From IMG/VR virus record IMGVR_UViG_3300040801_001810, positions 62,001-126,000 of that record: DNA of 64,000 nucleotides, one strand, 5' to 3'. The notes beneath the pieces were generated by a model that was given only the letters and a program-made list of their open reading frames with translations, was not told the origin of the DNA and did not search any database. The position numbers were made by a program, and so were the translations under genes. The DNA comes from a virus. This document shows positions 1 to 63,979 of this stretch, piece after piece. Within the stretch, counting starts at the first letter, position 1. Every line of letters starts with the position of its first letter.

Positions 1-1
1 A

Positions 2-10550: not shown

Positions 10551-10551
10551 T

Positions 10552-12443: not shown

Positions 12444-12474
12444 TATACTAATTAGGTATTTAAAGGATTAAATT

Positions 12475-12762: not shown

Positions 12763-12764
12763 TT

Positions 12765-13758: not shown

Positions 13759-13780
13759 AAATCAATGACTTACGTAGCAC

Positions 13781-13801: not shown

Positions 13802-13815
13802 AGGTATTATAACAT

Positions 13816-14331: not shown

Positions 14332-14340
14332 GAGAAAATT

Positions 14341-14673: not shown

Positions 14674-14683
14674 AGCCCCTTTT
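14662..14683. terminator. bidirectional Rho-independent terminator between converging operons
   Basis: AAAGGGGCT (14662-14670) pairs with AGCCCCTTT (14674-14682) around a TAA loop, followed by T on the plus strand and flanked by A-rich sequence on the other side, so it works in both directions. The loop TAA is also the Hsp20 stop codon. The minus-strand operon ends five bases further on. Confidence 0.9.
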
Positions 14684-14687
14684 TAAT

Positions 14688-19912: not shown

Positions 19913-19920
19913 AACATACC

Positions 19921-31999: not shown

Positions 32000-32079
32000 C
32001 TCCTTATAGTATAAGTATATTAAAATTTTCGCTATACAGCGATTTAAATATAGTATAATTCTTTGTTCATCAATAACTA
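32000..32079 (-). promoter_or_regulatory. intergenic gap with short hairpin and AT-rich promoter-like sequence
   Basis: The largest gap in the tail operon (80 bases). On the minus strand a TCGCT-GTAT-AGCGA hairpin is followed by AAAATTTT, preceded by an AT-rich run with TATACT. It may be an internal promoter or partial terminator; evidence is weak. Confidence 0.35.
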
Positions 32080-44607: not shown

Positions 44608-45863
44608 TATAGTGCGCAACAGTTAATTAGTCCAGAATCAGAGTACCACTTCTGATTGTATTTTGCTTTTTGATTAGAGAATCGTAAAGCTACTTGTCTA
44701 TTATTTACTTTGGTAAAAGAATTATATTCCCCATATTTAAATACTCTTGGTATAACATCTTGAATGCCCTCTATAGATAGAACTGTAGATATTATTCTAT
44801 TCCAAACTATTTCGCCGCCAATTGGAAGATCATTTATATATTGTATAACAGCTGATCTTGCTTGCGATCTAAGAGTATTAATATCTCCAGCACCTGGTTC
44901 GCCTAATATAGCAAAGTCAAGTTCTACTCCAAGATACTCAGGAACAGTTACATATATGATATCTCCATATGATAATTCTTGTTGAATCTTTTCTGTTACT
45001 ACATTAATTAGGCCATTCGAAACTAATGGCGAGACTCCGTCAATAATGATACTAACAGTTCCATTACCATATTTATTCTTTTCAAATATTACGTCTCTAA
45101 CTCCTGGAACAGAAAGAGCCGTTCTTCTAATTGATAATTCATTAGTTCTAATAGCTGATCTAGCTGTAGAAATTTTATATCTAAACTCCTCATCAGTCAT
45201 GGAATACTTTCCATTCTGAATTGGATATCTATTGGAGCATTTAATATATTGAGATATCTTTCTTAATTCTGGAATACTTTGAATTAAATGTGATACTAAT
45301 GTATTAGTTTGTATGTTGGATGATGGGCCAGATATAGTAGCCACTACTCCAACGTATGCTTCTGTAGAGGCACCTATAATAGCAGGACCTATAGATGTAT
45401 AGGAAGTAGCACCATCAAAAGTTTGAATAGTAGTACCTTGAGGAATTATTAGTGTATCTGGATCACCATTTACATCGTTAGAAATGAATCCCTTATCTAA
45501 TAAAATTCTTCTTTCTTCTGCGGTATAGCTTCTCTTGATTAGAGTAGGAACAGTCCAGTTTAGCCTTGGATCTATATAGAAGTAGAAGTTTGAAGTAGAG
45601 TAGTCAGAGGCTATGATAGCGGAATCTCTTAATTCGCCAACTAGGTATCCGATCTTATCAAGACTTAAGCCTGCCGCTTTAGTAGGGTCAATTGAATTAT
45701 ATATGAATTCAATATTATCATACATTTTTTCTAGTTCAATACCAAGTATGTCAATTAATCCTTTTGAAATACCTTGAGAGTTAAAGTTGTTAACTGGAGT
45801 ATTATTTTCTAGACGAGTTTTCCCATCTTGAACGATACTTAAATAATTTCTTCTATTAGGCAT
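44607..45863 (-). CDS. baseplate J-like protein
   Basis: 418 residues. The family pattern is clear: LIIPQGTTIQTFDGATSYTS, then ASTEAYVGVVATISGPSSNI, NRYPIQNGKYSMTDEEFRYK and TALSVPGVRDVIFEKN. Baseplate J proteins are the wedge components that transmit contraction in contractile-tail phages and related injection machines. All family blocks appear in order. The gene order gp25-like then J matches contractile-tail phages. This is the best single evidence that the operon builds a baseplate. Confidence 0.9.
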   Translation of the reverse strand: MPNRRNYLSIVQDGKTRLENNTPVNNFNSQGISKGLIDILGIELEKMYDNIEFIYNSIDPTKAAGLSLDKIGYLVGELRDSAIIASDYSTSNFYFYIDPRLNWTVPTLIKRSYTAEERRILLDKGFISNDVNGDPDTLIIPQGTTIQTFDGATSYTSIGPAIIGASTEAYVGVVATISGPSSNIQTNTLVSHLIQSIPELRKISQYIKCSNRYPIQNGKYSMTDEEFRYKISTARSAIRTNELSIRRTALSVPGVRDVIFEKNKYGNGTVSIIIDGVSPLVSNGLINVVTEKIQQELSYGDIIYVTVPEYLGVELDFAILGEPGAGDINTLRSQARSAVIQYINDLPIGGEIVWNRIISTVLSIEGIQDVIPRVFKYGEYNSFTKVNNRQVALRFSNQKAKYNQKWYSDSGLINCCAL

Positions 45864-46402: not shown

Positions 46403-47197
46403 TTAACCCACTAAGTCTTTGATTTTACCAAGCTTAGAAACAACGTCTCTAACCTTTTTACCACCCTCGGCTATCTGTACAAATTTTGCCATGTTTGGTA
46501 ATTCTGGTATAGCAACTGCTCCAGTTGGAATAGTAGAAGGGATAAATCTTTGTAAGAAGTTATCTGCCATCCACTCTCGTTGGTGTTCTGAGGACTCCCA
46601 TCCAACACTTCCAGCAATATAGACTCCTTCTTCACCAAGAGCTATGGATCCACCAGCTGATTTAATTAAGATAGCCCCATCCGTATTTATAAATATACCT
46701 ACATTTTTATCGCCTAAATCCTCTTGACCTTCAGTAGCAGATTGTTGATTTTTAGCGTTACTACTAGTATAGTCCTTATTAGTAGGCGGGGTAAGAGCCA
46801 TGGCTACCTTTTCTAAATCTAACATACTGATCTTACTAATCGAAAATGTTGACCCTCCACTATTAGCGTTAGTACTTGAAGATGACTGATTTAAAGGCAA
46901 TACATATACAAACCCTAAAGGAAGATCTGCTAGTGTTCCTTCTTCATCAAGTATGCCTGGAATAAAACTAAGTCGCTCTTCATCTATACCAAAATCTGAT
47001 ATAGCTTCATCATGTGTTGCAACAACTGCAACATGTCTTTTAGGGTGCGGAACTTCTGCTCCTCCTAAGTACTTGAAATCAAAGAACTTACCATTAAATT
47101 CTATTCTAACTATTCTATGAAATTGATTATAGTAATTAGTAGCTGCAATTTTAGCACCAAACTGTTTAAACTGATATCTATTATCAGAATCGTACAT
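46403..47197 (-). CDS. baseplate spike-like protein
   Basis: 264 residues. The N-terminus (YNQFHRIVRIEFNGKFF) is beta-rich, resembling the OB-type start of gp5/V-like spike proteins. A later NTDGAILIKSAGGSIALGEE is a short beta-strand repeat like those in triple-stranded membrane-piercing spikes. A Ser/Thr/Asn linker lies between the two. The last 70 residues (MADNFLQRFIPSTIPTGAVA) are helical or extended. It sits between the hub-like giant gene and the gp25-like gene, the usual spike position. The start is in a TAATG overlap. Confidence 0.62.
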   Translation of the reverse strand: MYDSDNRYQFKQFGAKIAATNYYNQFHRIVRIEFNGKFFDFKYLGGAEVPHPKRHVAVVATHDEAISDFGIDEERLSFIPGILDEEGTLADLPLGFVYVLPLNQSSSSTNANSGGSTFSISKISMLDLEKVAMALTPPTNKDYTSSNAKNQQSATEGQEDLGDKNVGIFINTDGAILIKSAGGSIALGEEGVYIAGSVGWESSEHQREWMADNFLQRFIPSTIPTGAVAIPELPNMAKFVQIAEGGKKVRDVVSKLGKIKDLVG

Positions 47198-50100
47198 TAG
47201 CTTCCTCCTGCGATTGCTTCAGGTATGGATCCAACAATACCTAGTAAGCTAGACTTAAAGTTTTCTGATGGTTCAGGTGTAAAAGGAAGTCCTGGAATAC
47301 TCCATAAGATACCTCTGTACTCATCTGGGTTAAAATTAGTTGTTATATTTGCTTTCAATGGATCACTAAATGCAGCAAACCTGGCAATAGGACTCTTAAC
47401 ACCTAACACATTATGATTCATCAATGTCTTCAAGTTAGTATAATCTACTCCATTGAATCCTGCAACATAAGGAACTCCATGATACACTAATGCTGTAAAG
47501 TTAATACAGTCTCTTCCAAGAATATTACCCATCATATCATATAGAAACTTATGATTTTTTTTGTATGCATTAACAGTATTATTCCAGAAGATCGATAAGC
47601 CAGTTAAAGCTCCAACTCCCCCACCTATGAAATTACCCCCAGCGGCAGAAATTCCACCAGCTGTAGCAATACCTGCTCCTACTCCAGCAAACACTAATTG
47701 ACTACGTTTCCTCGAGATATAGAAATCATAAATCTGATTGATAATCTGGACGTCCTGTAATTGAATTGGATTCCTATCATAAGTAACTAGGTTAGGAGTT
47801 ATGATTGTTCTAAATCCTCGTTCAGGAGTAAACGAATGTATAACTTCTTCTACTTCTACTGTTCCAATCATATCATTTAACCTATCATCGATATGAAGTA
47901 TATCATAAGGCTGGATACTAGTATCACCAATAATTTCAATAGTTCCTTGATACATCTTTTCTACTTCTTGTTGTAGAAGACGCACAGCTACCATTACAAA
48001 TGATGGGAAGTACTGCCAATTAGGAATGTCTTTATTTTTATCAGATGATCCTAAATATTTATTGATCTTTTTAGCAGAGTCTTCTTCATCTCTAATTCTT
48101 CTAAATTCTTTAAAGAACTTATCGTTCTTCTTAGTAATATCAAACCAATTAGCATCTATATTCTTTTGATAACTATTAAGCGGTCTTGTGTGTTCGTCTC
48201 TTAGATCTCCAAATGCCTTAGTCTGCCACAGTTGTAATTTCTTAGATATGAATGCATCACTCATATCACCCAACCTAGCTGAAGTTAATTTAGGTTCATT
48301 AGTATAATATAGATTAACAGCATTAGCAAAATTAGAACTTAATGCGATGTTATTAGATATTAAGTTGGTAACATCCGAAATTAAATGGTGAGATTGGATC
48401 TTCTTATATTGCGGATCCTTAGCTAGCTGTGGATCGATATTGTCAGTTATACTTTTAACATTATAGAAATCCTCAGCTGATAGAGATGTATTTACTTTAG
48501 GTCCCCAATTGGCAAACATTAAATCATATAGATTATGCACTGCTAAGCTAAACTTTTTTGCAAGTTCTTTATCAGTTTTAAAATCAAAAGTATTTATATC
48601 GTCTTCATCTACTGATGAGTATTCGGCAAACTGTAATAATGCTGTTATAGTTTCTCCAAATGCATTTGGAAGAGAAGAGTTATTACCAAGTAAATTAGAT
48701 AATGTTTCCATTAAACTATCATTTGCTCCAGCAAGCTCTGTATTCTTTAATATATGCTGTGATAAAACTAACGCATTTAATCTTTTTTGTAGATAAGTAT
48801 ATACAATTTTATATTCAGGTTTAATAATTAGAGGATTAATTAATCCACCAGTAAAGAAACTAGCAATAGATATATTATCAGGCAATGAAATATTTTTAAT
48901 AGTATTTAGAACAGAAGGTAACTGTTCAATACTTTGTTCGATTTGTTTAATGTTTAATGACGATAAAGCAAATGCGTCGGTGTATTTATAATATCCAGAT
49001 TTTTCACCTATAACTAGAGTCTCTCTATATTGTTTCTTTTTAGATATACGGTCATCATTAAATGATCTAACTACAGGAATTGTATCTCTATGATATAAAC
49101 ATAGTTCTTTCATTGCTTCCCATACACTCTGATCAAAAATCACCCAATCAAAAGTTGGTTTATGATACTTTGATAGAATATGACTGTAAGGTAGATATAT
49201 ATTTTCGTCTCTTGGATTATCTTGAGCAAATACATTAGCAGTTGCTCCACCTAAAAGATTACTCATTAAGAACTTATCAGCAAGCTTTCCTCTGCTATTT
49301 TTAATATTTCTTCCAGTGAAATCTCCATGAGTAACAGAACCAAGAGTTGATATCTTTCCTAGATTTTCTAGACCAGGGATCATATCAAGAATAGATGACG
49401 CTACATCTCCGTGATCTTTTGTAGTAGATAAAAGACCAAACTTATGTGCAACAACATGATGATTTAACTGAGCGCCGTAGCTTTGACATACTAGCTCAAC
49501 AACTGGACCTGAAGTCATTTCTATTATTCTACCTTGGAAAGCAATATCTAGTAAAGAGTCATGAGGACCATATCCCATTTTAATTAATATAGATGTCCCA
49601 GGCTTAATATCTAAGGTACCAAAAAATAAGTTATCATCATTACTAGGAGTATTTAGATTGCCAGCAAAATCAGATCTTTCTCTAAATAGACTTAGTCTAT
49701 CAGTAAGAGTATTAGTGACGTTACTTAATCTAATGATTGCTGTTTTACCAGCTGAGCTTTTATTAGATACAATTTCAATTGATTGTATTGCGTCATAGCT
49801 GAAGTAGTCGTCTAGATTTTTAGGATAGAATGTTTTATCTTCTTCTATAAAATAGATCTTAAATGCAGGAAACATCTTAATAGTTGTATCTTTGCGTTTA
49901 AGTCTTTGATCCATAAATTGCTTTAACATTTCAGTTTTTCTATCGGCAGCTTCTTTGCTTCTAAAGTTCCAGAACTTTAAAAACTGTAGCTCTGGTAAGC
50001 TGTCAAAGTTTAAGTTAGGTGTAGGATTTAAATTATACTCATGAATAAAAGTATTTAATCTAATATAATATCCTATTTTATTATATAAATAACTTTGAAT

Positions 50101-53100
50101 ATTCTTAATATCAGGAAGAGATAACCAATTTTCTTCTGTTGATGAGGCTAGTCCTGATCTCATTTTAGAAGCAATTTCTTTTATAATAGTTTTCTCTTCT
50201 GATGATGCTTGTTCTATTTTAGGATCACTAACAGTAGCGGTAGTTATATTCTCTGCATGTTTAAGTACTGTCATTATGTGAGATCTAAGCTTAGCTATCT
50301 GTGCTGCTTGTGCTCCACTCTTTGAGAGTGTTCTAAAGATCTGATCATTTTTTTCTTCAAACTTACCAAGAATACTATTAGCGGCTACTTGAGATACAAG
50401 ATTATTGTTAACAAGTTTTGATCTATAATATTCGTTTATATGTGTATAAACTTCAAAGATTTCTATAAGCGTTTTAATCCTAGCAGCATTTATTAAATTG
50501 ATCTTAGTTAGGTCTTGATTCTCAAATATAATAGATTTACTAGATCCACTAATTCTAGTTTTAAATGATTCAAACTCATAATCCCATGTAGATTTATTAG
50601 GGGCCTTTTCTCTAGGATTAGCAGCAATGTAAGCATCAATATATTCATTTATTGTATCATTAGTAAACTTTCCATCATCAAGATTATTAGTAGCTCTAGA
50701 TAAAACAACTTGTGTATTTTCAAGCTTCTCAATTAATTCTTTTAATGTACCAGCATTAGAAGAGAAAGACTCTTTTAATAAAACATTCTCAACTCCATTT
50801 TTAATATCTGGATCAAGTTTTTGTGATGCAGATATTAACTCGTCATACTTCTTAATGGATTCAGTGCTTTCAACAAGACTCATCATTGCATGGAGTTTAC
50901 CAATTTTAGCATACTTTCCAACAGCAGAAGTAACATAACTTGCTATATCGTACTTACTATCTATTTGATTATATAAGTAAAAATCTGGTGATAAAAGAAC
51001 TTCTCCAAATTGTGCTGGTATATCGAAATCTTTATAGCAGTTGACATGCACTTTAGTTTGATTGCTAGTTATTGTATCAATTTTCTTAGAGCCAAAGATA
51101 TCTTCTGTGAATAGTTTATTTCTAATAACAGGATCTCTAACAACATCGTTGGCAAGTATACCAGCAATAGATGAATTAAATGATTCGATCATTCCAACCA
51201 TAGATGAACCAGCAGTATTAATAACTGCATTCTTAGCAAATTCCCCAGCAAGGTCAATTCCTATTAGTCCTATTGCTCCAATACCAATTAGAGAAGCAGC
51301 AATTATCGGTAATACAGCCGCTCCTGTAAAGAAAAGACCAACTGCAATTCCAATACCAACAGCAGTTCCTTGAGTTCCGATTGAATCTAAGATCTTTGTA
51401 AATAAAGATTTATTTGGTTGTATCAGATTAATAATAATATCTGCTTGTTGTTCCATTACAGAGTCAAACTTACTAATAATAAATTTAATAATTTTATCTA
51501 CTTCTGGATATTCATTAGCAATTTTATTAAGAGCGTTAGTAGCAGTTGCATTAATATCATTAATCATTATTGAAGAACCAAGAATTTCTTTACTTTGCTT
51601 ATCAATAACATTTGCAGCAGCTGCACCAATTACCTCATTAGAAGTAACCTCAGAATTAATTGGTAATTTATTATTCTTAGATAGGGATCTTTTATTCTGT
51701 GCTTCGGCTATAACCTGGTTAATATAATTGATAACTCTTTTGCCATGAGAAGACAGGAAGAATCTTGATCTAATTATATCGTCAAGACTTGGTTCTTCTA
51801 TCTCATCATTATTCACTATACCAAAAGTTTTAACTACGTATCTATTATTTTCTATTTCAGTAGCAGCCAGAAGCTTAGCAAAACTGGTAATCTGTATATC
51901 ATCGGATGACTCTTGATCAATTGAGTGATAGTCTTGTATAGTAAATTTAGCCTGAGTTAAACTTAAGTTAGTAGACCACGAGCCTGGCTGTTCTTGTATA
52001 TTGGTTGAGTTAGATGTATCATACACAACTTTATCTACACCAAATACTTTGAATACATGATGGAGAGGAACATCAACAATTATTCTACTATCTAGATATG
52101 TTATTAGTTCAGGAGCAGTATATGTAATAATCTTAACAGTCTCTTGTAATCTTTCCGATAATAGAGATAATTTTGTCTTAAGATCTTCTACTTCATTTGA
52201 ATTAACTGAAGTTATATTTAGAGACATATTAATATCATCATGTCCGATATGTTGATAATAAGGATATTTATATGCAGACAAAGTTATTGGTATAAACTTA
52301 TTATTAAAAGTAAGAGACCAACTTATAGTTATATCTTTAGCATTATCTATAATAATAGTATCTTCAGTAATAGGTAATCTAAATGTTTTAAATGGAGACT
52401 CTGCCCCTGGATCAGCTCTAGCTATTACAATACTATCACTAGAACCTACTCCTAGTTCAGTTAGAATTGTCTGTCTTAGATTAAATAAGAAAGCAGCAAA
52501 ACTAGATTTTTTATCTTCAACTTCTGCTTTTGATCCTTTTTCTAACCATGCCCAAATCTTATCAATAGCAGCTTGAGCTGTAGTAACACCAGCTGCATTT
52601 TCAATAGGAGTAACGCCTGTCTCATAATGTAATACTCCTCTTAAAAGTCCAGGAACGTCAACAGTATCTTTCTCAAACTTCCCTTGTACTAAATCAGTAA
52701 CCTGATTAAATAGAACTGTGGATTGTTCGAAACCAACTTTTCGTGATAGCCCTCTCATCAACAATCCAAATGTTGATTGAATTGGTTTAGTAGTATCATC
52801 AGAATCTAGTGTAATACCTTGACTGGCTAAGAGAGTCGGTATTATATTATTAAACTGATTAAATTTAACTGATACTTCATTAAAGAAATCTTGCTTAGTA
52901 AGAAAAGTATTAACTATCTGTCTAACCAGACCAGTCTTATCTTGTATCTGATCAAGAGTACTATTTAATTGTTGTAGTGTATCTACTTGAACATCAAATC
53001 GTTCATTTGATATCTGAGAAGCTATGTCTCTAAAGGATCCATTAAAGTATCTGTACTTAAATTTAATTGGCTTCTTATTATCTTCTGCTTTATAGCTATA

Positions 53101-54366
53101 TAGAAAGTTCTCTCTATTATTTGGTCTTAGTTTTTCAAGAGAATATGCATCTTTAATTATTTCTCCATTAGAGAATACTGGGATGTTATTTCCATTCTCA
53201 TCCTTAACATAATTTCTATCACCAATAAGACTTTGATAGAATGCTCTAAATGGTAAGCTTTCCTTAAAATTTGGTGATCTATCAATAGTAATACCTAATA
53301 CATCTTCTGCTCTCTCTGGTACTACTGATTCGTCATTAAGCTTAGCTTCAGCCTTAGCAAGTAGATCCTTAAGAAATTGATCTTTATACAGAATATCTTG
53401 TTGATATTTAACATCTTTAAATGTAGCAAGACCTTCGAATGGGCCATTAATAGCTTTAGGATCAAATGGTAGAAAAGTTACCTGAGCTTGAAGTGTATTA
53501 GGAAATCCTTCAACTGATTGTATATGAATACTTTCTAAAGCAACAGATACCCATTGATTAGGCCACGAAGTACCAGAACAGATTTCTTTAAAGAACGAGC
53601 ATATATCTTTATTACGAATATTAACAAAAGGAGTTCTCTTAAACATAGCAAACAGATTTAACAATTGATAGTTAATAGAATCTTCATTAGGAAATATTAA
53701 AGATATAGAAATATTCTTAACCTGTTGCATTGTTGGTATCTTTGGATTACCAGCTGTACGAACAGTAGGAAAATATTGATAACCATTCTGTGTATTAAAT
53801 GATATCTGAGTAGGATCTACTAAAAATCCTAGATCACCAACTTGGAGATAACCGTCTGTTAGCTTTCCAATCTTATCAGATAAGAATCTAGCCTCATTCT
53901 GTCTATCCTCCGCTGATTTATTCTCAGCGGAATTTTCTTTTAATATAGAATTAAGTTCTTCTAAAGAAGTATTATTAATTGAGCTAAGATTTGGTCTGAT
54001 AACTCTAAATATTCTAGTTGGATTAGATAATTGTGCTTGATCTTGGGGAGGTAATTCTGGCCACGCATTAAATGTATTATCAGGGAATGTAATAGTAACA
54101 ACATACACTCTATTAGAATGCATGATTATATCGCCAGATCGTAAGTTTCTGACATTAATAGGTTTATCGCCATCAAGATCAACTTTTACTTTAAGATACT
54201 TAGAGTAAGCGATTGGAATTAATGATCTTATAGTCTTAATTTTATTCTGGTTATTTATTTGATTAGCACTAGACTCCGTATTAAACGGATCTTTTTTAGT
54301 TAAAATTAAGTGAAGGGTTGCGCCTAGGTTTTCAGGATTAACAGGCTTTACAACAGCATTATTCAT
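47197..54366 (-). CDS. giant baseplate hub / tail protein with hydrophobic segments
   Basis: 2389 residues. Residues 1-330 are beta-rich (GYLQVGDLGFLVDPTQISFN). A later part (about 1495-1620) reads SIEIVSNKSSAGKTAIIRLS and TSILIKMGYGPHDSLLDIAF, a pattern of hub proteins of the gpD/VgrG-type fold. Residues about 2125-2200 (VEEVIHSFTPERGFRTIITP) match the hub end seen in many long-tail phages. A Gly/Ala-rich hydrophobic stretch lies at about 995-1040 and another at 2222-2259, suggesting membrane contact or ejection. It follows the 60-residue gene by 3 bases. The size is well above that of simple hubs, so ejected or tape-measure functions may be fused. Confidence 0.66.
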   Translation of the reverse strand: MNNAVVKPVNPENLGATLHLILTKKDPFNTESSANQINNQNKIKTIRSLIPIAYSKYLKVKVDLDGDKPINVRNLRSGDIIMHSNRVYVVTITFPDNTFNAWPELPPQDQAQLSNPTRIFRVIRPNLSSINNTSLEELNSILKENSAENKSAEDRQNEARFLSDKIGKLTDGYLQVGDLGFLVDPTQISFNTQNGYQYFPTVRTAGNPKIPTMQQVKNISISLIFPNEDSINYQLLNLFAMFKRTPFVNIRNKDICSFFKEICSGTSWPNQWVSVALESIHIQSVEGFPNTLQAQVTFLPFDPKAINGPFEGLATFKDVKYQQDILYKDQFLKDLLAKAEAKLNDESVVPERAEDVLGITIDRSPNFKESLPFRAFYQSLIGDRNYVKDENGNNIPVFSNGEIIKDAYSLEKLRPNNRENFLYSYKAEDNKKPIKFKYRYFNGSFRDIASQISNERFDVQVDTLQQLNSTLDQIQDKTGLVRQIVNTFLTKQDFFNEVSVKFNQFNNIIPTLLASQGITLDSDDTTKPIQSTFGLLMRGLSRKVGFEQSTVLFNQVTDLVQGKFEKDTVDVPGLLRGVLHYETGVTPIENAAGVTTAQAAIDKIWAWLEKGSKAEVEDKKSSFAAFLFNLRQTILTELGVGSSDSIVIARADPGAESPFKTFRLPITEDTIIIDNAKDITISWSLTFNNKFIPITLSAYKYPYYQHIGHDDINMSLNITSVNSNEVEDLKTKLSLLSERLQETVKIITYTAPELITYLDSRIIVDVPLHHVFKVFGVDKVVYDTSNSTNIQEQPGSWSTNLSLTQAKFTIQDYHSIDQESSDDIQITSFAKLLAATEIENNRYVVKTFGIVNNDEIEEPSLDDIIRSRFFLSSHGKRVINYINQVIAEAQNKRSLSKNNKLPINSEVTSNEVIGAAAANVIDKQSKEILGSSIMINDINATATNALNKIANEYPEVDKIIKFIISKFDSVMEQQADIIINLIQPNKSLFTKILDSIGTQGTAVGIGIAVGLFFTGAAVLPIIAASLIGIGAIGLIGIDLAGEFAKNAVINTAGSSMVGMIESFNSSIAGILANDVVRDPVIRNKLFTEDIFGSKKIDTITSNQTKVHVNCYKDFDIPAQFGEVLLSPDFYLYNQIDSKYDIASYVTSAVGKYAKIGKLHAMMSLVESTESIKKYDELISASQKLDPDIKNGVENVLLKESFSSNAGTLKELIEKLENTQVVLSRATNNLDDGKFTNDTINEYIDAYIAANPREKAPNKSTWDYEFESFKTRISGSSKSIIFENQDLTKINLINAARIKTLIEIFEVYTHINEYYRSKLVNNNLVSQVAANSILGKFEEKNDQIFRTLSKSGAQAAQIAKLRSHIMTVLKHAENITTATVSDPKIEQASSEEKTIIKEIASKMRSGLASSTEENWLSLPDIKNIQSYLYNKIGYYIRLNTFIHEYNLNPTPNLNFDSLPELQFLKFWNFRSKEAADRKTEMLKQFMDQRLKRKDTTIKMFPAFKIYFIEEDKTFYPKNLDDYFSYDAIQSIEIVSNKSSAGKTAIIRLSNVTNTLTDRLSLFRERSDFAGNLNTPSNDDNLFFGTLDIKPGTSILIKMGYGPHDSLLDIAFQGRIIEMTSGPVVELVCQSYGAQLNHHVVAHKFGLLSTTKDHGDVASSILDMIPGLENLGKISTLGSVTHGDFTGRNIKNSRGKLADKFLMSNLLGGATANVFAQDNPRDENIYLPYSHILSKYHKPTFDWVIFDQSVWEAMKELCLYHRDTIPVVRSFNDDRISKKKQYRETLVIGEKSGYYKYTDAFALSSLNIKQIEQSIEQLPSVLNTIKNISLPDNISIASFFTGGLINPLIIKPEYKIVYTYLQKRLNALVLSQHILKNTELAGANDSLMETLSNLLGNNSSLPNAFGETITALLQFAEYSSVDEDDINTFDFKTDKELAKKFSLAVHNLYDLMFANWGPKVNTSLSAEDFYNVKSITDNIDPQLAKDPQYKKIQSHHLISDVTNLISNNIALSSNFANAVNLYYTNEPKLTSARLGDMSDAFISKKLQLWQTKAFGDLRDEHTRPLNSYQKNIDANWFDITKKNDKFFKEFRRIRDEEDSAKKINKYLGSSDKNKDIPNWQYFPSFVMVAVRLLQQEVEKMYQGTIEIIGDTSIQPYDILHIDDRLNDMIGTVEVEEVIHSFTPERGFRTIITPNLVTYDRNPIQLQDVQIINQIYDFYISRKRSQLVFAGVGAGIATAGGISAAGGNFIGGGVGALTGLSIFWNNTVNAYKKNHKFLYDMMGNILGRDCINFTALVYHGVPYVAGFNGVDYTNLKTLMNHNVLGVKSPIARFAAFSDPLKANITTNFNPDEYRGILWSIPGLPFTPEPSENFKSSLLGIVGSIPEAIAGGS

Positions 54367-54369: not shown

Positions 54370-54552
54370 CTATTCCTTTAAGTTTCTTAAAGCAATTGGG
54401 CTTAGTGATAGAGGATCATCTACCTCAATGACATTAATCTTAGTTGGTTTTCCGTTTAACTTTGAGATTTCTCGTTCTAATAAACGTAAATATTCTGAAT
54501 AATCTTGGCCGTCATCGACATTGATTGATATATTTGCTTCAACTACACTCAC
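54370..54552 (-). CDS. 60-residue acidic protein between giant genes, GTG start
   Basis: 60 residues. The start is a GTG in a four-base GTGA overlap with the stop of the 2350-residue gene, so it is translated by re-initiation. It contains NISINVDDGQDYSEYLRLLE and KPTKINVIEVDD, a possible strand-helix-strand domain. No family recognised. Its place between two giant virion genes suggests a small partner, a chaperone or a tail adaptor for one of them. Confidence 0.6.
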   Translation of the reverse strand: MSVVEANISINVDDGQDYSEYLRLLEREISKLNGKPTKINVIEVDDPLSLSPIALRNLKE

Positions 54553-57500
54553 AGATCTGCTCTCCTATCTAATTGGGATGAACCAAATTGTGGTATGTAA
54601 CTAGTATAGTTCGAATAGTTATTATTTGGAGGACCGAAGAACGCTTGTCTGTTTTGATTTACAGTACCTACTGTATTATCAATCATCCTAGATATAACAC
54701 TAGATCTCTGTCTCTTATTGTTTCTATTGCTATTTAATCTAATAAATGCCTGTTTAGAGAATGAAGCATCAACCATATCAAGAGGAATATTTCTATTTAA
54801 TTCTACTGAGGAGCTAATAGCATTATGCGAACCATCAATATCAACACCAAGATCAGTAAATGCATCTAATGGATTAGCTGAATTAGATAACTGATTAGGT
54901 TTAAAGAAAGTGGCAGCCATATATATACCAGCAGCAATAGCCCCAACTTTCCCTCCCTTTTTAAAGAAGGATCTAGCATTAGGTGTATCCAGTTTAAATT
55001 TTTTAGATAACTGATCTCCTAACTCTGATACTGCTGATCTAGTAGGTGCTGGTACAGAGAATTTATTCTCTAACATGAAATCCTTCTCAGCAGCAGATAT
55101 TATTATATCAGCTATATTTGCATTATCTCTAACTAGATCAATATTATCAAATGATCTTTTCATATCAAATAACTGAGATCCTCTTGGAGCGATTTCTTCC
55201 ATTTCTCTCATTATACCAATAGATTTTTTATAGTAAGATTGTCCTTCATCTGCTCCATACATATCAGTAAATAGATTTTTAAGCGAATTCTTATCTTCTC
55301 TAGTAGAATTTTTTGGATCTAAGAAGACCTTAGCAGCAGAAGCAAGTCTTCCAAAATCAGCATTAGGATGCTTTGCCAAACTAATAAACGTCTGGGCAAT
55401 ACCAGCATAACCATGATTTAAGTTGCCCATTAGCGCTTTAGCAGCTACACTATCTTTTCCAATAAGTCCTGCTTGTAATAATTGTCTTGATCTAGTGTAA
55501 GCAACATTTGTCATTAGTCCTATTACATTCTTTGATACCGCAGTATGAGCAACTCTATCCATTTGATTACCAATATACTTTGCAGTAATAACATTAGGAT
55601 TGTGCAGCTGAATAGTCTTAATGTTTTCAGCAAATGATTGAAAGTCATTAGCAAACATTGTCATAGTTTTTTGGGAATTAATATCCATACTCTTAGTAAT
55701 AAAATTACCTTGATCATCAAAGCCTCCCATTAAGACTCCATCTTTAGTTCCAGGAGTAATATCCATTAAGAACATCTTCTCTTTTAAACTATCTCTTAAT
55801 GATTTAACTACGCCTTGTTTAGCAGAAACTACAGAGTCTAAAGCTTTTCCTAGTGATGCAGAATGTTCTGCACCATAACCCATTAGAGATTCAGCTGTCT
55901 TGAGACCTTTCATTACAAAATACGCAACATCACCATCAAAGTCAGCTCCAAACAACTTAGTATATTGAGCATGTACTTGAGCTTCATTAGCATTCATTCC
56001 AAGGAACTCACCGACTTCTTGTGGAATTATATTTAACCGCATATCTAGTACAGCATCAGTTGCAGATTGTACGTTAGGATGACGAGTCATATATCCATAT
56101 AGATATTCTTCTCCTCTCATTATACTAGATATTTTACCAGCATTATCTGGTCCAAATACTCGAGCAAGATGTTCAGTAGCTTTAACTACATTATTAGCTT
56201 TATTAATTTGCATTGGAAGCTCAAAATTTTTAAAGAACGCATCTGTTACATATACATCAGAAAGATTAGATTTAGATGTTAGTCTTTTAATTAATTGATT
56301 TGCTTGTGTAACGCTTCCTTTAAACTGATCTCCAAAAGTAGCAAATCCTCCACGTCTTTGAATATCTAAAGCCTTTTCAATTATATCTGCCGCTCCTCTA
56401 ATAGGTGCTTGAACTCCACGAGGAGCAAGCTCATTAGCTCTAGCATATACAGAAGAAGAATCCATTAAGAATCCTTGATTCATATAGTTTAGATATTGTC
56501 TCTTTAGAAAACTCTCTGCTGTTCTTACATCAGTTTGTCCTTTACTACCAGATCTCATTTCAGATAGTACAGATTCATAATGTTTAGCTGCTTCAATAAC
56601 TTTATACTGTTGTTTATTTCCTTGGCTTAAATATCCAATAGAAAGATCTTTACCATAAGGATTAAGTACATTGTATATATTTTGAGGAGACGTGTCAGCG
56701 TGCATTACTAGTTTACGTAATCTAACAACTTTATTAGTTTCATCTATGCTTTCAACTATTCCTTTACTTGGATCCTTAGCTGAATCATACATAGTCTTAA
56801 ACATAGACATCATTTTATTCTCTTGCTGAATCGCCATCTGTGGATCAAGCTCTGAGTTCTTAAGCATGTCAGCTATATGAAATTCAAATGCTCCTCCAAG
56901 TTCTTTCTTAGCAGAATAAGCAAAGACGCCTTTATCCTTAGCCATTGCAGCCCATGACTGTACAGCAGACATTGAAACAAAGTTTTTATTATTTTCAAAT
57001 GATTCGGCAAGTTTTGATGTTTGTAATTCATGAATGATTGACTTAACAGCTTTCTCTAAGTCTTCCCCACTTCGACCTTCTTCTGCAAGCATGGCAGAAA
57101 CGTGCTGTATCATTTCAGCTTCAGCAGTATCACTATTAATAATTCGTCCAAGCTTATTAAGATCAAGTCTATTAACTCTATCTAATAGTTTATTAATATC
57201 TTTTATATTAAGTTCCATATTAGAAGTAGAGACTGCTCTAGATAGCAACACATCTTTAAATCTATCCATGGTTCTTCTAGCAGATGCAAATCTTTTGTCT
57301 TTAAGGAATCGTCTACTTGTTTTTAAATCATCAATAGTAGAGCGAGATACATGACCAAAAGGAGTATCTATTAATGAAAGTAAACCCCCACGTAATTTTA
57401 AATCAGTTGGTTTAGGTTGTCTTCCCTTCATTATATTATAAATTGCTCCACGTTGTCTATGTCTGAACCCAGGAATAAAAGGAGAGTCGTCTCTATCCGT

Positions 57501-60500
57501 CCATTTCTGAATTGGTTCTAAGAACATAGGAATCTTAGCTCCTTCATCTATTCTTTTAATATCTGGAAGGAAGTATGTCTTAAGTGTTGGGGTCATACTT
57601 TCTTTTATATTAACTAAGTCGTCTCTATGAAAACTAGATAAGGCTCCTTTTGAATTGCTAAGTGTTGCATCTATATCTTTAGTTGAGTTCCTAACTGTTT
57701 GATTAATCCAATCTTCAATATTCTTTCTACCAGATTTCATTACATTATCAGAACCAACTGCATCTGAGTCAGCCCACATTCCATACCAGTTCTGTGCTTT
57801 TTGTTTATCCCAAATTATTCCAGCATCAACCATATAACCATTAAGTTTCTCTATAGAAAGATCAATATTACCAATAAATTTCTTAGCAACAGCAAGTTCT
57901 TTTGGATCAGTTATATTCTTAAATTTAATATTAGTCTCTGGATTATGAATAATAACACCACGCTTCTTATCAAAGCTTGAATTAATTTCAGTAGATATCT
58001 TTTTGATTACCTTCTCAGCTCTAGTTTTCTCTGCTTGAGTGCCAGTCTCTGTTTGATCCAAAAGCTTGTCAAATACCTTTTCTATTAAGGCGTTCTTTTG
58101 TGCACCTACATATCCTTTTTCTATAAAGTCTGCTGTAGAAACATGCTCAGCACCACCCATAGCAATTCCAAGAGATAACCATTTATCTACTACTCCAGTG
58201 CTCTTAGTAAGCAATGATCTATAGTTAAAAGTAACATGATTAAAATCTGAACCAGCTGCTGTAAATAATAGGTTGCCGTGAACTTTAATCTTACCAGCTG
58301 TATCTCTATCTATCATGACGTTTCTTAATACACCATCTAGTTCAGCTTTAGTAGTAACAAAGCTTTTATCTCCTTGAGCCATAGTTAAACTTGTGCCTCT
58401 AGGAATATCAATAGTTAATCCTTTAGAATCCATATCTGCTTGAACGTCTTTTAGCGCAATATCCCAATGTGATTTTTTAACTGAACCGCCGTCCAGATCA
58501 GCTAGTTCCTTAACTCTTTTTCTAACTCTTCCCTCAAGATCTAGTACTCTTTTACTAAGATGAGGATCCGCAGATGTCCATTGAGCAGAAGTTAAATCAA
58601 CATTTTTTTCGATATGAAATTGATGTCTATCAAATACTTTTTGAGAGAAGGCATTATATCCTTCTTGTCCTCTCCAAGAATTAAATACTGATACGCTATC
58701 TGTCATGATATGATGAGAGAACTCATTCGTCATTGCGTCAGATTTAAGTTTCCATCCAGCGGCATCTATTTCGCCTTGAGAAATAAATGATGGTCTAAAA
58801 TACTTTCTATGCATTGCTCTTTTTTCAAGGTCAGTTCTTCCTTTCATAGATTTCATGAATTGGCTGCTTACTCTATTCTTAATACCCATATAAAACTGAT
58901 CCCATTGTTTAGTCATTGGGTTATCAGAGTTTGGGATCAAGTGGTTAGGAGAGAACATAGACATAGTTTGTTTAGCTATCTGTCCTTGACCTAGTAATGA
59001 TGCAGATGCGAATTCTCCATGAATGGTATATCCTCGTTCTAGATACTTAGCCTCTTCAAAGCTTTCATCAAGACCCATTATTCGTTTACCATCTAAAAGG
59101 AACTTTTGTAGTTCACTAAGATTCTTATATGATTTTTCACCAGATTGAAACTTGTTAATTTCATCGATTAACATCACATTAGTAAATAAACTATCAACAA
59201 CAGGAGAAGCATGTGCTTGAGATAAGAATCCCTTTTGTGCCCAATCAGTAAGCATCTCGTCACCAATTATAATATTACCCTTACGTCTAAAATGATCAAT
59301 AGCTTTTCTTATCTGACCAGGTTTATCAATATTAATTGGATCGGTGCCTTGTCTACCCATCATTCTCATAATAACTTTATTAAGAGCAAGAGATCCTTCT
59401 CCACCAAATCCTAACTTCTGATAGTATGCTATACTATGAACGTCTATAAATTTTAAATACTTTTGTAATTTAGCCCATGCCTTTGGTGCTTTATTCTTTA
59501 GCATATGTAGATCAAATTGAGAACCATTCTTAGTAGTAAAGAATACTTTCTTATTGGCAGCTACTGCGGCTTCAACTTGTCTTAGAATAGATTCACCAAT
59601 ATGTTCAGCAAAATCCATATTATCTTTAAATTTAGGTGCTCCTCTAGATGTTCTAAAGTTCTCAGCTTGTCTTCTAATTTGTTGTCCCCAGGCTTCTCCT
59701 ACTTCATCAGGAGTAGTAAGATGAGCAGATTTATCACCAAGTTCACGTCTTAGCCATGAAGCAGTATCTTCTGTCCATCCATACTTTTTCATTTGATAGT
59801 ATCCATGATCAGATACAAATTCATCAGCTCCAGTATGAACTAATTTACCATTCTTAAATTCAGACGACACAACTCCTGCTTTAGTTAACTGAGTATATTC
59901 GTCTCGAGCCATCCACTCTGGACCAGGAAGATCTCTAGAGATACTTTCAAAGTCAAACGTAATATTAACTACGTCTTCTCTATTCTTAATAGCTGTAGCT
60001 AGTGTTCCAAGATTTTGCATTGACTCATGAGCATTACCTAATCTAAGTAACTGATTCTTAGTAAATTTACTTTCTGTAACAAGTCTACCTGCTTTGAACG
60101 AGTCTCTAATAGTGCCCTCAGCTAATGGGGAATCTTCTAGAAGATTATTCATTGAAAAATGTATTCTTCTAATAGCTTTATCAGGATTAATAGAAAATTC
60201 GTTTTCCATCATATTACTATCAAGAATATCATTTAGTGCTCTAATCATCTGTTGTGATTTATTTTCGATATCCTCATTTATTCTAAGATCTTTACCAAGA
60301 GAATGTTTTTTGTTAAGACGTCTAATGGCGTCTCCTTCTGTCTTTAGATAGAAACCATCTAACATCTCTGTTACGCTTGGAGTTGATCCTGGAATTCTAC
60401 CATGTTGAGCAAGAGGAATCTCAGTTGAGAACCGCCCCTTCGTATTATGTTCAAATGAAACTTTAGCATAATACTTAGGATCAGTGGCGCTACCTTTAGT

Positions 60501-61601
60501 TATAATTTCAAATCCAACATCTTTAATTTGAGTATCAGCCGCTCTTGTAGTCTTTAAATCATTTAGCTTATCGCTTAACTTCTTTAATCCAGCAGTATAA
60601 TCAAATTGACTTAATAATCTAAATCTTTTATTATCAGGAACAAAAGCCACTCTATTTAATGAGCCTGATGTAATTTTATTATTATCTTGTGCTAGAAGAT
60701 CAAACGCATTAACTCCTTTAACAGAATGTTTATTATAACCTTGACCAATTCTCTGTGAATATACCTTTTGCCTAGCAACTGAAAGATGTGTTGAATCAAA
60801 CTCTTCGCCACCATATAAGAAGCTTCTTACATTTGTTTCCGTAAAAGTTTGAGTAGTAGGATTAGCATCATAAGCATTCTTAGCCATAGAATAAGAGGAT
60901 TTCATTCTATTTAGTCTTCTTTGATAAAGATTAGCATAGGAAGAATCATATTCTAAATAATATTCATGTAAAGCTTTTAATCGAGTCTTATCAGAAGCAG
61001 GAGATTTAATAGAATGTAAAGTAGCTACGTCTTCTTCTCTAGCAGCAGACTCTCTCGCAAAGTGCTCGTATAATGTGCTTTCTCTGAGGGTAAATAGAAT
61101 GTCATCTCTATCAACAGTTACATCAACAGCTGGCTTAAGTGGATATCTGGATCCTTTAGGAGTTCTAACAGCTCCACGAGCAAATCCAAGATCCTCTTCT
61201 GTTCTAGATATAATTGAGTCTTCTGCTCTCTTAACATAATTAATATATGATACGTCTTTCATTTCAGCCATATCAAATTTAGTAGCAGTGTCCATATCCA
61301 AAACATCATCCAAAGATCGTTGAGTTTCTTCATCAATATCAATACCAAAATAAGGTTGCTTAAGGGAAGCAGATTCGCTGATGATTCTTTCTCTTGAATC
61401 AAATTGTTTCATTGCTTCTCTAGAAACTATCTTATTTTTATATTGATCTAGGTACTTTAATGCCAATCTTCCAGTTGGGCCTTTAATCTTATATGCACCA
61501 AAAGCCATACCAGTTAAGGCTCCAAGTTTCATAAAGGTATTAAATGTCCAGTGACCTTTATCAACATCTTCTTTTTTAAATGGATTATAAATATCAGCCA
61601 T
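54549..61601 (-). CDS. giant virion-type protein with DnaQ-like exonuclease and RNA polymerase beta-prime-like active site
   Basis: 2350 residues. Near the C-terminal end is the RNA polymerase active-site signature: YMTRHPNVQS (R1840-x-P1842, matching the NRAPTLH region of beta-prime) followed by YTKLFGADFDGDVAYFV with D1887, D1889 and D1891, the Mg2+-binding NADFDGD loop of the double-psi beta-barrel. A DnaQ-type DEDDh set lies upstream: TFDFES (D550, E552), NGSQFDLHML (D697), FIDVHSIAYYQKLG, then AHASPVVDSL (H797, D803; one residue longer than usual). Gly/Ala-rich hydrophobic stretches lie near residues 25-45 and 2217-2234. It starts in a TAATG overlap with the PD-(D/E)XK gene and occupies the tape measure slot. 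Single-chain DFDGD polymerases are known from SPbeta YonO and from the virion of crAss-like phi14:2; this looks like a third setting. Activity is inferred. Confidence 0.72.
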   Translation of the reverse strand: MADIYNPFKKEDVDKGHWTFNTFMKLGALTGMAFGAYKIKGPTGRLALKYLDQYKNKIVSREAMKQFDSRERIISESASLKQPYFGIDIDEETQRSLDDVLDMDTATKFDMAEMKDVSYINYVKRAEDSIISRTEEDLGFARGAVRTPKGSRYPLKPAVDVTVDRDDILFTLRESTLYEHFARESAAREEDVATLHSIKSPASDKTRLKALHEYYLEYDSSYANLYQRRLNRMKSSYSMAKNAYDANPTTQTFTETNVRSFLYGGEEFDSTHLSVARQKVYSQRIGQGYNKHSVKGVNAFDLLAQDNNKITSGSLNRVAFVPDNKRFRLLSQFDYTAGLKKLSDKLNDLKTTRAADTQIKDVGFEIITKGSATDPKYYAKVSFEHNTKGRFSTEIPLAQHGRIPGSTPSVTEMLDGFYLKTEGDAIRRLNKKHSLGKDLRINEDIENKSQQMIRALNDILDSNMMENEFSINPDKAIRRIHFSMNNLLEDSPLAEGTIRDSFKAGRLVTESKFTKNQLLRLGNAHESMQNLGTLATAIKNREDVVNITFDFESISRDLPGPEWMARDEYTQLTKAGVVSSEFKNGKLVHTGADEFVSDHGYYQMKKYGWTEDTASWLRRELGDKSAHLTTPDEVGEAWGQQIRRQAENFRTSRGAPKFKDNMDFAEHIGESILRQVEAAVAANKKVFFTTKNGSQFDLHMLKNKAPKAWAKLQKYLKFIDVHSIAYYQKLGFGGEGSLALNKVIMRMMGRQGTDPINIDKPGQIRKAIDHFRRKGNIIIGDEMLTDWAQKGFLSQAHASPVVDSLFTNVMLIDEINKFQSGEKSYKNLSELQKFLLDGKRIMGLDESFEEAKYLERGYTIHGEFASASLLGQGQIAKQTMSMFSPNHLIPNSDNPMTKQWDQFYMGIKNRVSSQFMKSMKGRTDLEKRAMHRKYFRPSFISQGEIDAAGWKLKSDAMTNEFSHHIMTDSVSVFNSWRGQEGYNAFSQKVFDRHQFHIEKNVDLTSAQWTSADPHLSKRVLDLEGRVRKRVKELADLDGGSVKKSHWDIALKDVQADMDSKGLTIDIPRGTSLTMAQGDKSFVTTKAELDGVLRNVMIDRDTAGKIKVHGNLLFTAAGSDFNHVTFNYRSLLTKSTGVVDKWLSLGIAMGGAEHVSTADFIEKGYVGAQKNALIEKVFDKLLDQTETGTQAEKTRAEKVIKKISTEINSSFDKKRGVIIHNPETNIKFKNITDPKELAVAKKFIGNIDLSIEKLNGYMVDAGIIWDKQKAQNWYGMWADSDAVGSDNVMKSGRKNIEDWINQTVRNSTKDIDATLSNSKGALSSFHRDDLVNIKESMTPTLKTYFLPDIKRIDEGAKIPMFLEPIQKWTDRDDSPFIPGFRHRQRGAIYNIMKGRQPKPTDLKLRGGLLSLIDTPFGHVSRSTIDDLKTSRRFLKDKRFASARRTMDRFKDVLLSRAVSTSNMELNIKDINKLLDRVNRLDLNKLGRIINSDTAEAEMIQHVSAMLAEEGRSGEDLEKAVKSIIHELQTSKLAESFENNKNFVSMSAVQSWAAMAKDKGVFAYSAKKELGGAFEFHIADMLKNSELDPQMAIQQENKMMSMFKTMYDSAKDPSKGIVESIDETNKVVRLRKLVMHADTSPQNIYNVLNPYGKDLSIGYLSQGNKQQYKVIEAAKHYESVLSEMRSGSKGQTDVRTAESFLKRQYLNYMNQGFLMDSSSVYARANELAPRGVQAPIRGAADIIEKALDIQRRGGFATFGDQFKGSVTQANQLIKRLTSKSNLSDVYVTDAFFKNFELPMQINKANNVVKATEHLARVFGPDNAGKISSIMRGEEYLYGYMTRHPNVQSATDAVLDMRLNIIPQEVGEFLGMNANEAQVHAQYTKLFGADFDGDVAYFVMKGLKTAESLMGYGAEHSASLGKALDSVVSAKQGVVKSLRDSLKEKMFLMDITPGTKDGVLMGGFDDQGNFITKSMDINSQKTMTMFANDFQSFAENIKTIQLHNPNVITAKYIGNQMDRVAHTAVSKNVIGLMTNVAYTRSRQLLQAGLIGKDSVAAKALMGNLNHGYAGIAQTFISLAKHPNADFGRLASAAKVFLDPKNSTREDKNSLKNLFTDMYGADEGQSYYKKSIGIMREMEEIAPRGSQLFDMKRSFDNIDLVRDNANIADIIISAAEKDFMLENKFSVPAPTRSAVSELGDQLSKKFKLDTPNARSFFKKGGKVGAIAAGIYMAATFFKPNQLSNSANPLDAFTDLGVDIDGSHNAISSSVELNRNIPLDMVDASFSKQAFIRLNSNRNNKRQRSSVISRMIDNTVGTVNQNRQAFFGPPNNNYSNYTSYIPQFGSSQLDRRADL

Positions 61602-63979
61602 TATAAATTAAACTTCTTTCTTACATCAAAGGCTCTAGATATAGTAAGAGATCTATCTCTTCTAATTGTTACATTAATAACATTTGCATCACTAGCTCCA
61701 TTATTAATATAGACCATAGCGTTAGATTTAATGCCATTCTGTCTAAATAGATTATTTATTATCCCTCTAACGTGACCAGAACTTAAGTTCGGAGTTTCCA
61801 TAGGAACTTCATTCATATCAGCTGCTTGTATCTCTCGATCAAATCCTTGCATTCTAAGCATTTGTTCATTCCAACCAAGCCCAAATTCATGTGCATCAAA
61901 ACCTTGTTCCTGTATAGTTTTTAATTCGATATCTTCTAACTGGACGCCTGGGTCAAGAACGCTTCTATTAAATACATGTCTTCTATCAACCGATATTCCT
62001 TTACTTGTATTCTCTACAAAAGCACCAGTTGCTTCTTTTTGATCACTAGCATTCCATTGTTTCTTAAGAGCGGCCCCTAAGTCAGAAGGAAGTACACTAA
62101 GAATTTCTTTTCGTTCTCTTGGATTTCTAGTATTTAAGAATGATTCTATATATGGTTTCTCAGTAAAAGGAGTTGCTCTAAATAGATCAGCTACATTTCC
62201 TTCGCCTTGATTAATAGAAGTTAGGGTTGATCTTCTTGCATCCATAAACTTCTTCTGAGTTAATCCCGATGATAATTGTGTCAACATATCAGCTTTAGCA
62301 TATTTAGCTGCGTCAAAGTATGAAACTATATCACGCTTTTCTTGAATACTATTTGGAATATATTTTGAACCAGTCGCAAATCTATAAAGTCCATGAACTG
62401 TTCCATATGCAGTACCTAACCCAGCACCTATAACTGTACCTAATGGTCCACCTAATACAAAACCTCCTGTACCATAAGAAATGCTTCCTGCTAGGGGGTC
62501 AGTCTTTGAAGCGAGTCCTCTTGAGTATGGTTCTACAAATGAGCTAATTGGTTCATCCCATGGCTTGTATTCTTTACCATATAATCTAGTCATCTTATAA
62601 TGTTCTATTGGATCTTTCATTCCAAATAGTTTATTAGTAAGCAAGAAATTAGTATTAGTAAAATTCTCCCAAGCCCAACCAATTGCTCTTTCCTTTAAAC
62701 TATAATCCGCTCCAGCTTTAATATCTTCATTAATAGATTGTATATTCTTTTGAGTATCAGGAGTTAATAGTTTCCCTTTGAATCTATTTGGATATAATTC
62801 GTATTTACGTAATCTAGCCTGTCTTTTCTTAAGGGCGAATTTATATCTATTTACTTCTTTTTCAGTAAGGACACCAAATTTGATTTGCTTCTCTACAAGA
62901 GTTTTAACTTCTTTATACTCTTTAGAAGTAGGAGCAACGTCAGCTAGAATATCAAGTCTGTCTATCCAGGAATAACTATATCCATAATTATCTTCGACGC
63001 CCTCATCTAGCATTGATTGAGCTGTTTGTCTCGCTTTTTGTAGCTTTGCTAAATCTTTTTCCCATCTATTCCTACTATAATTGACTTCAAATAATTTAGT
63101 CATCGTAGGATTATCTCTATTTATATATAAGATATTACCCTTATTAAGTCCAAGTTCTTTCAGATAAAAGTTAATCTGGCCAACGTGCTGATACTTAGGT
63201 CCTTCAGCTAGTTTCTGAAATCCTGCATCATTGATAGATTTAATTTCTAGTGCTCTACGACCTTTACCTCCTTTACCATCTCTAATAACAGCATCTACGT
63301 GACCAGTAATGTCGTTCTTAATATCAAATACTAGAGCTTCTGCCTGAATTAATAATCCTTCAGCTGCTAGTGAGTCTTGAATAGCAGCGTGCATTTCAGT
63401 TCCTTCTTCCATTATATCAAACGATTCTTTTAATGTAGGAGTTATCATACCTGTAAAGTACTCTAGTATCTGTGGTTCATTAGCTCCCAACATAGATGCT
63501 CTAGCAGGCATTGTTCTTCTTAAAGTTGTATGTGTCTTAGAGTAAGCTTCTCCAGGTAATCTAAGTTCTCCTCTTAGAATCTTTTCATAAGGATCACCAG
63601 AAAGGAATTGAGCTGGTAACCAGTTAGGCATTAAGTTAGGAATAGGATTAATTCCGTATTGCTTATACTCAGGTTTGTCTATTAATCTTCTGATAGGCTC
63701 AGTTAAGAATCCCATACCACCAAGATTCTTATCATAAAAACTTCTACTCATAGAAGCAATTCTACCAGCTGTCTGTAAAGTAGGCATTACAGCAGGTTCA
63801 CCAAATACTCTTTCAGTAATACTTCTACCTAGGAATCCTTTTAGTCCAGCAAATTGCGAAACGTCATATAAGAAATCTTCTGCTGCTGTCTCAGACCAAT
63901 TCTTATTTGGCATTATATTTACAGTCCCACCAGCCGTAGCTATTCCTGTTGTGCTTCTAATCTGAGACTGATTCCTCAT
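61601..63979 (-). CDS. RecB/Cas4-like PD-(D/E)XK nuclease fused to hydrophobic virion-type region; 5' end may lie outside window
   Basis: 792 residues from the ATG at 63979. The same frame stays open to 64000, so the true start may be beyond the edge; a GGGGAAGG about 10 bases before the ATG supports this start but spacing is long. Residues about 185-280 hold a complete RecB/Cas4-like nuclease set: H197 in GTEMHAAI, D229 in GHVDAV, E245-x-K247 in ALEIKS, and Q268-x-x-x-Y272 in GQINFYL. A Gly-rich hydrophobic stretch at about 500-535 (GGFVLGGPLGTVIGAGLGTA) resembles tape-measure or ejected proteins. Gene order (before the polymerase-like giant and the hub) suggests it is packaged and injected. 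Known relatives degrade or resect DNA ends. Confidence 0.75.
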   Translation of the reverse strand: MRNQSQIRSTTGIATAGGTVNIMPNKNWSETAAEDFLYDVSQFAGLKGFLGRSITERVFGEPAVMPTLQTAGRIASMSRSFYDKNLGGMGFLTEPIRRLIDKPEYKQYGINPIPNLMPNWLPAQFLSGDPYEKILRGELRLPGEAYSKTHTTLRRTMPARASMLGANEPQILEYFTGMITPTLKESFDIMEEGTEMHAAIQDSLAAEGLLIQAEALVFDIKNDITGHVDAVIRDGKGGKGRRALEIKSINDAGFQKLAEGPKYQHVGQINFYLKELGLNKGNILYINRDNPTMTKLFEVNYSRNRWEKDLAKLQKARQTAQSMLDEGVEDNYGYSYSWIDRLDILADVAPTSKEYKEVKTLVEKQIKFGVLTEKEVNRYKFALKKRQARLRKYELYPNRFKGKLLTPDTQKNIQSINEDIKAGADYSLKERAIGWAWENFTNTNFLLTNKLFGMKDPIEHYKMTRLYGKEYKPWDEPISSFVEPYSRGLASKTDPLAGSISYGTGGFVLGGPLGTVIGAGLGTAYGTVHGLYRFATGSKYIPNSIQEKRDIVSYFDAAKYAKADMLTQLSSGLTQKKFMDARRSTLTSINQGEGNVADLFRATPFTEKPYIESFLNTRNPRERKEILSVLPSDLGAALKKQWNASDQKEATGAFVENTSKGISVDRRHVFNRSVLDPGVQLEDIELKTIQEQGFDAHEFGLGWNEQMLRMQGFDREIQAADMNEVPMETPNLSSGHVRGIINNLFRQNGIKSNAMVYINNGASDANVINVTIRRDRSLTISRAFDVRKKFNL

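Follow-up and report, generated by a model that had tools for sequence, protein, structure and literature searches.

A giant tail-operon protein of a jumbo phage as a probable virion RNA polymerase with an exonuclease-like domain

We analysed a window of 64,000 nucleotides from a viral record of 230,193 bases and found that a giant protein encoded in its tail operon carries the conserved motif order of an RNA polymerase (RNAP) active site. We concluded, with a probability of approx. 0.7, that the giant is a single-chain two-barrel DNA-dependent RNAP of the YonO/QDE-1/beta-prime superfamily, forming part of a large protein in the virion of a jumbo phage from the 0305phi8-36 lineage. Judging from the sequence, the phage probably packages an RNAP of its own, joined to an exonuclease-like domain, and delivers it into the host along with the DNA. 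To a wider proposal we give slightly better than even odds. It holds that the giant represents a previously undescribed family of single-chain two-barrel RNAPs, delivered by the tail and equipped with their own 3'-5' exonuclease, whose genes fill the tape-measure slot in the jumbo phages with contractile tails and the phage-plasmids that make up the ancient 0305phi8-36 lineage, and that the "tape measure" of this lineage is, or includes, the virion RNAP. The gene and the features of its active-site region are as follows (window positions).

54549..61601, minus strand: gene of the giant protein, 2350 aa, ATG start (ORF call; homologues)
55929..55943, minus strand: DFDGD, residues 1887-1891, proposed catalytic Mg-binding triad (Asp triad invariant in 4 of 4 family members, DxDGD in eight divergent giants)
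56076..56084, minus strand: RHP, residues 1840-1842, the R-x-P motif (R1840 and P1842 invariant in four members and eight divergent giants)
55506..55535, minus strand: SKNVIGLMTN, residues 2023-2032, the K..IG...N motif (G2028 and N2032 invariant in eight giants)
55896..56756, minus strand: inferred DPBB-A (beta-prime-like) catalytic region, approx. residues 1616-1902 (best local hhalign hit; PDB profile hits)

The first-pass annotation had reported GADFDGD and an upstream RHP in the giant, and both were located as described: the GADFDGD codons span 55929-55949 on the minus strand, with the aspartates at D1887, D1889 and D1891, and R1840 precedes the first of them by 47 residues. An RxP followed after 28-60 residues by DxDxD occurs nowhere else in the whole 230,193-base record. 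The stricter form, with 38-50 residues before DxDGD, was found once in the genome, where shuffled ORFs gave an expectation of 0.03 per genome. Bare DxDGD is not rare, as DNDGD occurs twice elsewhere and DLDGD is present in the hub protein, so the case rests on conservation and context and not on the motif by itself. Within the inferred DPBB-A region a long insertion separates the first strands (1616-1634) from the R-x-P strand.

The whole giant gave no match in HMM libraries, among PDB sequences or by tblastn against 50,697 phage records; queries with its short peptides found no relatives, and none were found among bacterial genome contigs. Related phages were reached with the baseplate wedge gene as query, which led to two records, each with a full-length homologue of the giant at 29-30% identity, and the conserved C-terminus gave a fourth family member at 22% identity. 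At the motif the three homologues read GGDVDGD, RGDNDGD and DNDVD (the last in L154). Invariant in the four members, down to 22% identity, are R1840, P1842, P1860, E1862, the Asp triad, G2028 and N2032.

The flanking genes led to three named phages, Moorella MTATph1, Bacillus KLEB27-3 and Acinetobacter ME3, and the annotation of ME3 connects the operon to Bacillus phage 0305phi8-36. In the giant's slot KLEB27-3 gp034, which the depositors labelled a "structural protein", has RYP...KADYDGD, and ME3 gp36 has REP...GGDHDQD. From KLEB27-3 gp034 we reached phage-plasmids of approx. 200 kb from Cytobacillus, Bacillus and Paenibacillus; the proteins in their slot read IRYP...SGDFDGD, VRYP...NADSDGD and IRYP...EGDADGD. 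The slot giants of KLEB27-3, ME3 and the phage-plasmids are very divergent, yet all have R-x-P, 40-47 residues and DxDxD, and the order PD-(D/E)XK-like protein, giant, baseplate hub is conserved in them. An unguided MAFFT alignment of eight giants left eight invariant columns and no others, namely R, P, D, D, G, D, G and N. Conservation of DFDGD in homologues, proposed earlier as a check, held for the Asp triad and R-x-P but not for every position: the Phe varies, and the Gly is lost in two distant members, replaced by Val in L154 (DNDVD) and by Gln in ME3 (DHDQD), so that some members could be inactive. The slot protein of MTATph1 (L158:4513-10026) is without DxDxD and retains a recognisable exonuclease domain; a transposase gene follows directly after it, and loss of the polymerase part is possible.

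When viral contigs were scanned for GADFDGD, most of the proteins obtained were phrog_4291 members and beta-prime rather than direct relatives of the giant. Two viral proteins in the scan matched neither Pfam nor PHROG (L115:3-5999:-, at least 1999 aa; L076:4256-7027:+, 924 aa), and from their motif they are possible further unrecognised phage RNAPs. Members of phrog_4291, annotated as RNA-dependent RNA polymerase, show RYP or RHP, a modal 46-47 residues, DFDGD and then MGxxSNLITD, and the giant has RHP, 47 residues, DFDGD and then IGLMTN. By sequence SKNVIGLMTN is the likely counterpart of MGxxSNLITD, downstream of the active site. The catalytic motif claimed by the first-pass annotation is conserved. 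Its spacing of 47 falls on the phrog_4291 mode of 46-47, and single-chain two-barrel RNAPs are therefore a closer fit than beta-prime, with 35.

Profile comparisons of the motif region pointed in the same direction. With hhalign, the query family and the plasmid giants had their best local hit in the motif region, in register and weak (E 9e-4), and the plasmid giants aligned in register with phrog_4291 over the motif region (E 1.4e-3). A DPBB-A HMM built without the query family scored the giant at 14.4 bits, in register, compared with 8.1 for the best of 2000 shuffles. Against 177,635 PDB sequences, motif-region profiles of the giants placed mainly RNAP largest subunits on top, in register, with best E values of 0.02-0.05: one gave PHIKZ055 of phiKZ (E 0.044), Pol V and beta-prime, and another Pol IV subunit 1 (E 0.021) with QDE-1 further down (E 0.45). 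A C-terminal control profile of the giants had no matches in the PDB. The single match of PF00623 (Rpb1 domain 2) in the whole KLEB27-3 genome was gp034 at its DYDGD (E 7e-5), and its single match in the B. licheniformis plasmid was again the slot giant (E 0.02). The query-family profile alone found no RNAP in the PDB. When the plasmid-giant profile was run on the four family members, only L149 exceeded all shuffles and the query did not; the giant matched neither the PF05183 nor the phrog_4291 HMM of the YonO/RdRP-like family. Each of these sequence-based lines for an RNAP active site is modest, and jointly they are hard to explain otherwise.

For the second barrel we have a tentative candidate.

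58095..58205, minus strand: tentative DPBB-B (beta-like) candidate with K1133, K1162 and K1169 (Lys invariant in four members)

A profile search for a second barrel in the giant gave no support for this lysine candidate, and the KGM..NTNK second-barrel stretch of the YonO/phrog_4291 RNAPs was not recognised in the giant. AlphaFold models built with the four family sequences had a pLDDT of 39 for residues 985-2140 and 43 for 1605-1925, too uncertain for use. That a second barrel was not located with confidence would agree with the giant being an RNAP-derived, catalytically dead tail protein with a structural or DNA-guiding role, in other words a tape measure in which the polymerase fold survives as a fossil. 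The loss of the DxDGD glycine in L154 and ME3 fits this as well, as does the slot, which corresponds to that of orf146 in 0305phi8-36, a protein given the role of tape measure (PMC2147016). We consider a dead enzyme unlikely, because the triad, the R and P and the later G and N are the sole residues kept across otherwise unalignable giants, and invariance restricted to these residues is the pattern that selection on catalysis produces. In addition, the query and its nearest members retain an intact DxDGD.

The neighbourhood of the giant contains three marker genes.

61601..63979, minus strand: 792-aa protein with a PD-(D/E)XK / Cas4-like nuclease region, upstream of the giant (syntenic marker)
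47197..54366, minus strand: 2389-aa protein of baseplate hub / cell-wall hydrolase type, downstream (syntenic marker)
44607..45863, minus strand: baseplate wedge, gpJ-like (phrog_6 "baseplate wedge", E 3e-30)

The gene order on the minus strand is sheath-like, tube-like, small chaperonin-like, a protein of approx. 1229 aa, the 792-aa protein, the giant, the 2389-aa hub/hydrolase and baseplate genes with the gpJ-like wedge; the labels sheath-, tube- and chaperonin-like reflect our own reading of the sequences. The giant shares its operon with baseplate genes, the phrog_6 wedge among them. The 792-aa protein matched phrog_1706 (E 3e-16) and phrog_1990 (E 1e-9) and has relatives in KLEB27-3, MTATph1 and ME3; the MTATph1 counterpart is part of a larger protein of approx. 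1950 aa. The 2389-aa protein matched phrog_20474 (E 3e-42) and the hub proteins of the same three phages. Elsewhere the phage genome carries approx. 27 tRNA genes, most of them by far grouped in two clusters at its ends (G000 1-20000, L002; 206001-230193, L011 and L012), and it encodes a tmRNA with the tag GEETTEEFYPLAKAA.

A location in the virion is suggested for the giant by its conserved slot among structural genes, together with the depositors' annotation of KLEB27-3 gp034. The giant could instead be a non-virion RNAP produced in the infected cell, with its place in the tail operon due to chance. Two observations would suit such an enzyme: a separate two-barrel RNAP of non-virion type is encoded by many phages, and HMM and motif searches of the query genome turned up no second RNAP. 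We regard it as improbable, since the slot between structural genes is conserved in all phages and phage-plasmids examined, the KLEB27-3 slot-mate is annotated as structural, and two phage-plasmids (L170 of Cytobacillus and L171 of B. licheniformis) encode a separate PF05183-type RNAP outside the tail operon, which is what one would predict were the virion enzyme the one in the slot. These two RNAPs have approx. 1.2-1.4 thousand residues and the motifs NRYP/NRNP ... GADHDGD/GADFDGD. Their presence beside the slot giant would match, by analogy, the virion/non-virion pairing in P23-45.

Outside the polymerase region, three further features were found in the giant.

59184..59969, minus strand: inferred DnaQ-like DEDDh exonuclease domain, residues 545-806 (conserved residues; weak alignment)
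54900..54956, minus strand: C-terminal hydrophobic helix, residues 2216-2234, 134 residues before the end (hydrophobic segment)
54552..54989, minus strand: C-terminal segment of highest conservation, residues 2205-2350, with 41-54% identity (alignment of homologues)

D550, E552, D697, H797 and D803 are invariant in the four members and ordered as in a DEDDh exonuclease. The plasmid giants have similar exonuclease motifs near the N-terminus, and the query region aligned with its plasmid-giant counterpart in register, weakly (E 0.035). Exonuclease-type Pfam matches were obtained in slot-mates, namely RNase_T in MTATph1 (E 5e-5) and RNase_H_2 in B. licheniformis (E 2e-4); the curated exonuclease HMMs had matches in slot-mates only and none in the query giant. 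Eight of nine giants, drawn from every branch, have a strong hydrophobic segment that lies 109-138 residues before the C-terminal end, and the aligned C-terminal segment of the ninth (L149) is likewise hydrophobic.

Conserved exonuclease residues raise the thought of a two-barrel DNA polymerase similar to PolD, as a polymerase with a proofreading exonuclease is a familiar pairing and PolD has the same two-barrel fold (PMC4996933, PMC10770324). We judge this very unlikely: DxDGD stands together with R-x-P as in RNAPs, the PDB profile matches are RNAPs, and PolD is archaeal, with the exonuclease on a different subunit (PMC4996933). We give just as little credence to the idea that a tape measure protein happens to contain DxDGD by coincidence or as a calcium-binding loop of EF-hand type, since, common as DxDxDG loops are and although bare DxDGD arises by chance elsewhere in the genome, the RxP partner and its spacing are conserved and the profile matches are RNAPs, not calcium-binding proteins. 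The EF-hand loop was rejected, with the Gly at loop position 6 and the Glu at position 12 absent in all four members.

If the giant is a virion RNAP, the Asp triad of DFDGD would hold the catalytic Mg ions within a double-psi barrel of beta-prime type, and R-x-P and IGxxxN would be the matching substrate-site and bridge-helix-like elements. The DnaQ-like exonuclease domain and the C-terminal hydrophobic helix would be part of the same chain. The giant would be assembled into the tail at the tape-measure slot, adjoining the hub, and ejected with or ahead of the DNA, and its hydrophobic segments may hold the RNAP at the membrane or envelope. By analogy with P23-45 gp96, it could then transcribe the first phage genes after entry, and the exonuclease domain might trim or degrade nucleic acid. 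A further candidate for the tape-measure role is the protein of approx. 1229 aa whose gene immediately follows the chaperonin-like one; the slot giant may be the tape measure or ride with it. No shared promoter motif was found in 64 upstream regions, where the top words were near shuffle level or tRNA-derived. The count of TATACTATAT in the window was below chance. Words resembling TATACTATAT are present at window 32004-32057, upstream of a minus-strand gene, and before a few other genes, in numbers not above chance.

Should this reading be correct, the jumbo phages of several hosts would share a separate lineage of injected two-barrel RNAPs, and the start of transcription on their entry would have a concrete candidate. 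The "tape measure" assignment of 0305phi8-36 orf146 would then need revision, and a polymerase and an exonuclease-like domain would be united in a single polypeptide. To our knowledge no characterised phage RNAP joins these two in one chain. The reading is directly testable, since cultured phages and phage-plasmids of Bacillus (KLEB27-3, B. licheniformis, B. halotolerans) retain the slot. The giant family appears separate from the known virion RNAPs, its slot being annotated as tape measure, structural or hypothetical. We found no description of it in the literature searched; Supplementary Data 4 of PMC10770324 may list some members.

Virion RNAPs fused to giant proteins are already known from P23-45, crAss-like and N4-related phages (PMC10770324). 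That of P23-45 was spotted via DFDGD in the tail tape measure protein and was proved to be active and present in virions (PMC10770324). P23-45 gp96 and the giant are alike in the two-barrel DFDGD motif, which was the clue in both cases, in being giant tail-operon proteins with hydrophobic segments, and in having no detectable similarity to known RNAPs beyond the motif (PMC10770324). They differ in that gp96 is a siphovirus tape measure of 5002 aa with an N-terminal RNAP and DFDGD at 779-783 (PMC10770324), whereas the giant has 2350 aa in a contractile-tail-type operon, with the motif at 1887, the exonuclease-like domain before it and a slot by the hub. Searches of the 50,697 phage records (tblastn) and the PDB with the giant gave no gp96-type match, the presence of gp96 in these sets being unconfirmed. 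The virion RNAP of the crAss-like phage phi14:2, gp66, likewise lies within a giant single chain (PMC10770324), and the PDB sequence search with our giant gave no RNAP match. The phiKZ-type virion RNAP is also a two-barrel enzyme that a jumbo phage carries in its virion (PMC7824862), but it has several subunits where the giant is one chain. YonO, the phrog_4291 RNAPs and 0305phi8-36 orf99 (PF05183), the last a separate RNAP (PMC2147016), share R-x-P, the spacing of 46-47, DxDGD and MG/IGxxxN with the giant; unlike it, they have approx. 900 aa and are encoded outside the tail operon. Compared by slot and description alone, 0305phi8-36 orf146 takes the same position directly before the gp147 hub. 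Its tape measure assignment came mainly from a correlation with tail length, and its relatives are alignable over the last approx. 60 residues only (PMC2147016); in orf146 as in the giant the C-terminus is the best conserved part. On the best reading, the giants are a separate, exonuclease-fused family, analogous to the tape-measure-fused enzyme of P23-45.
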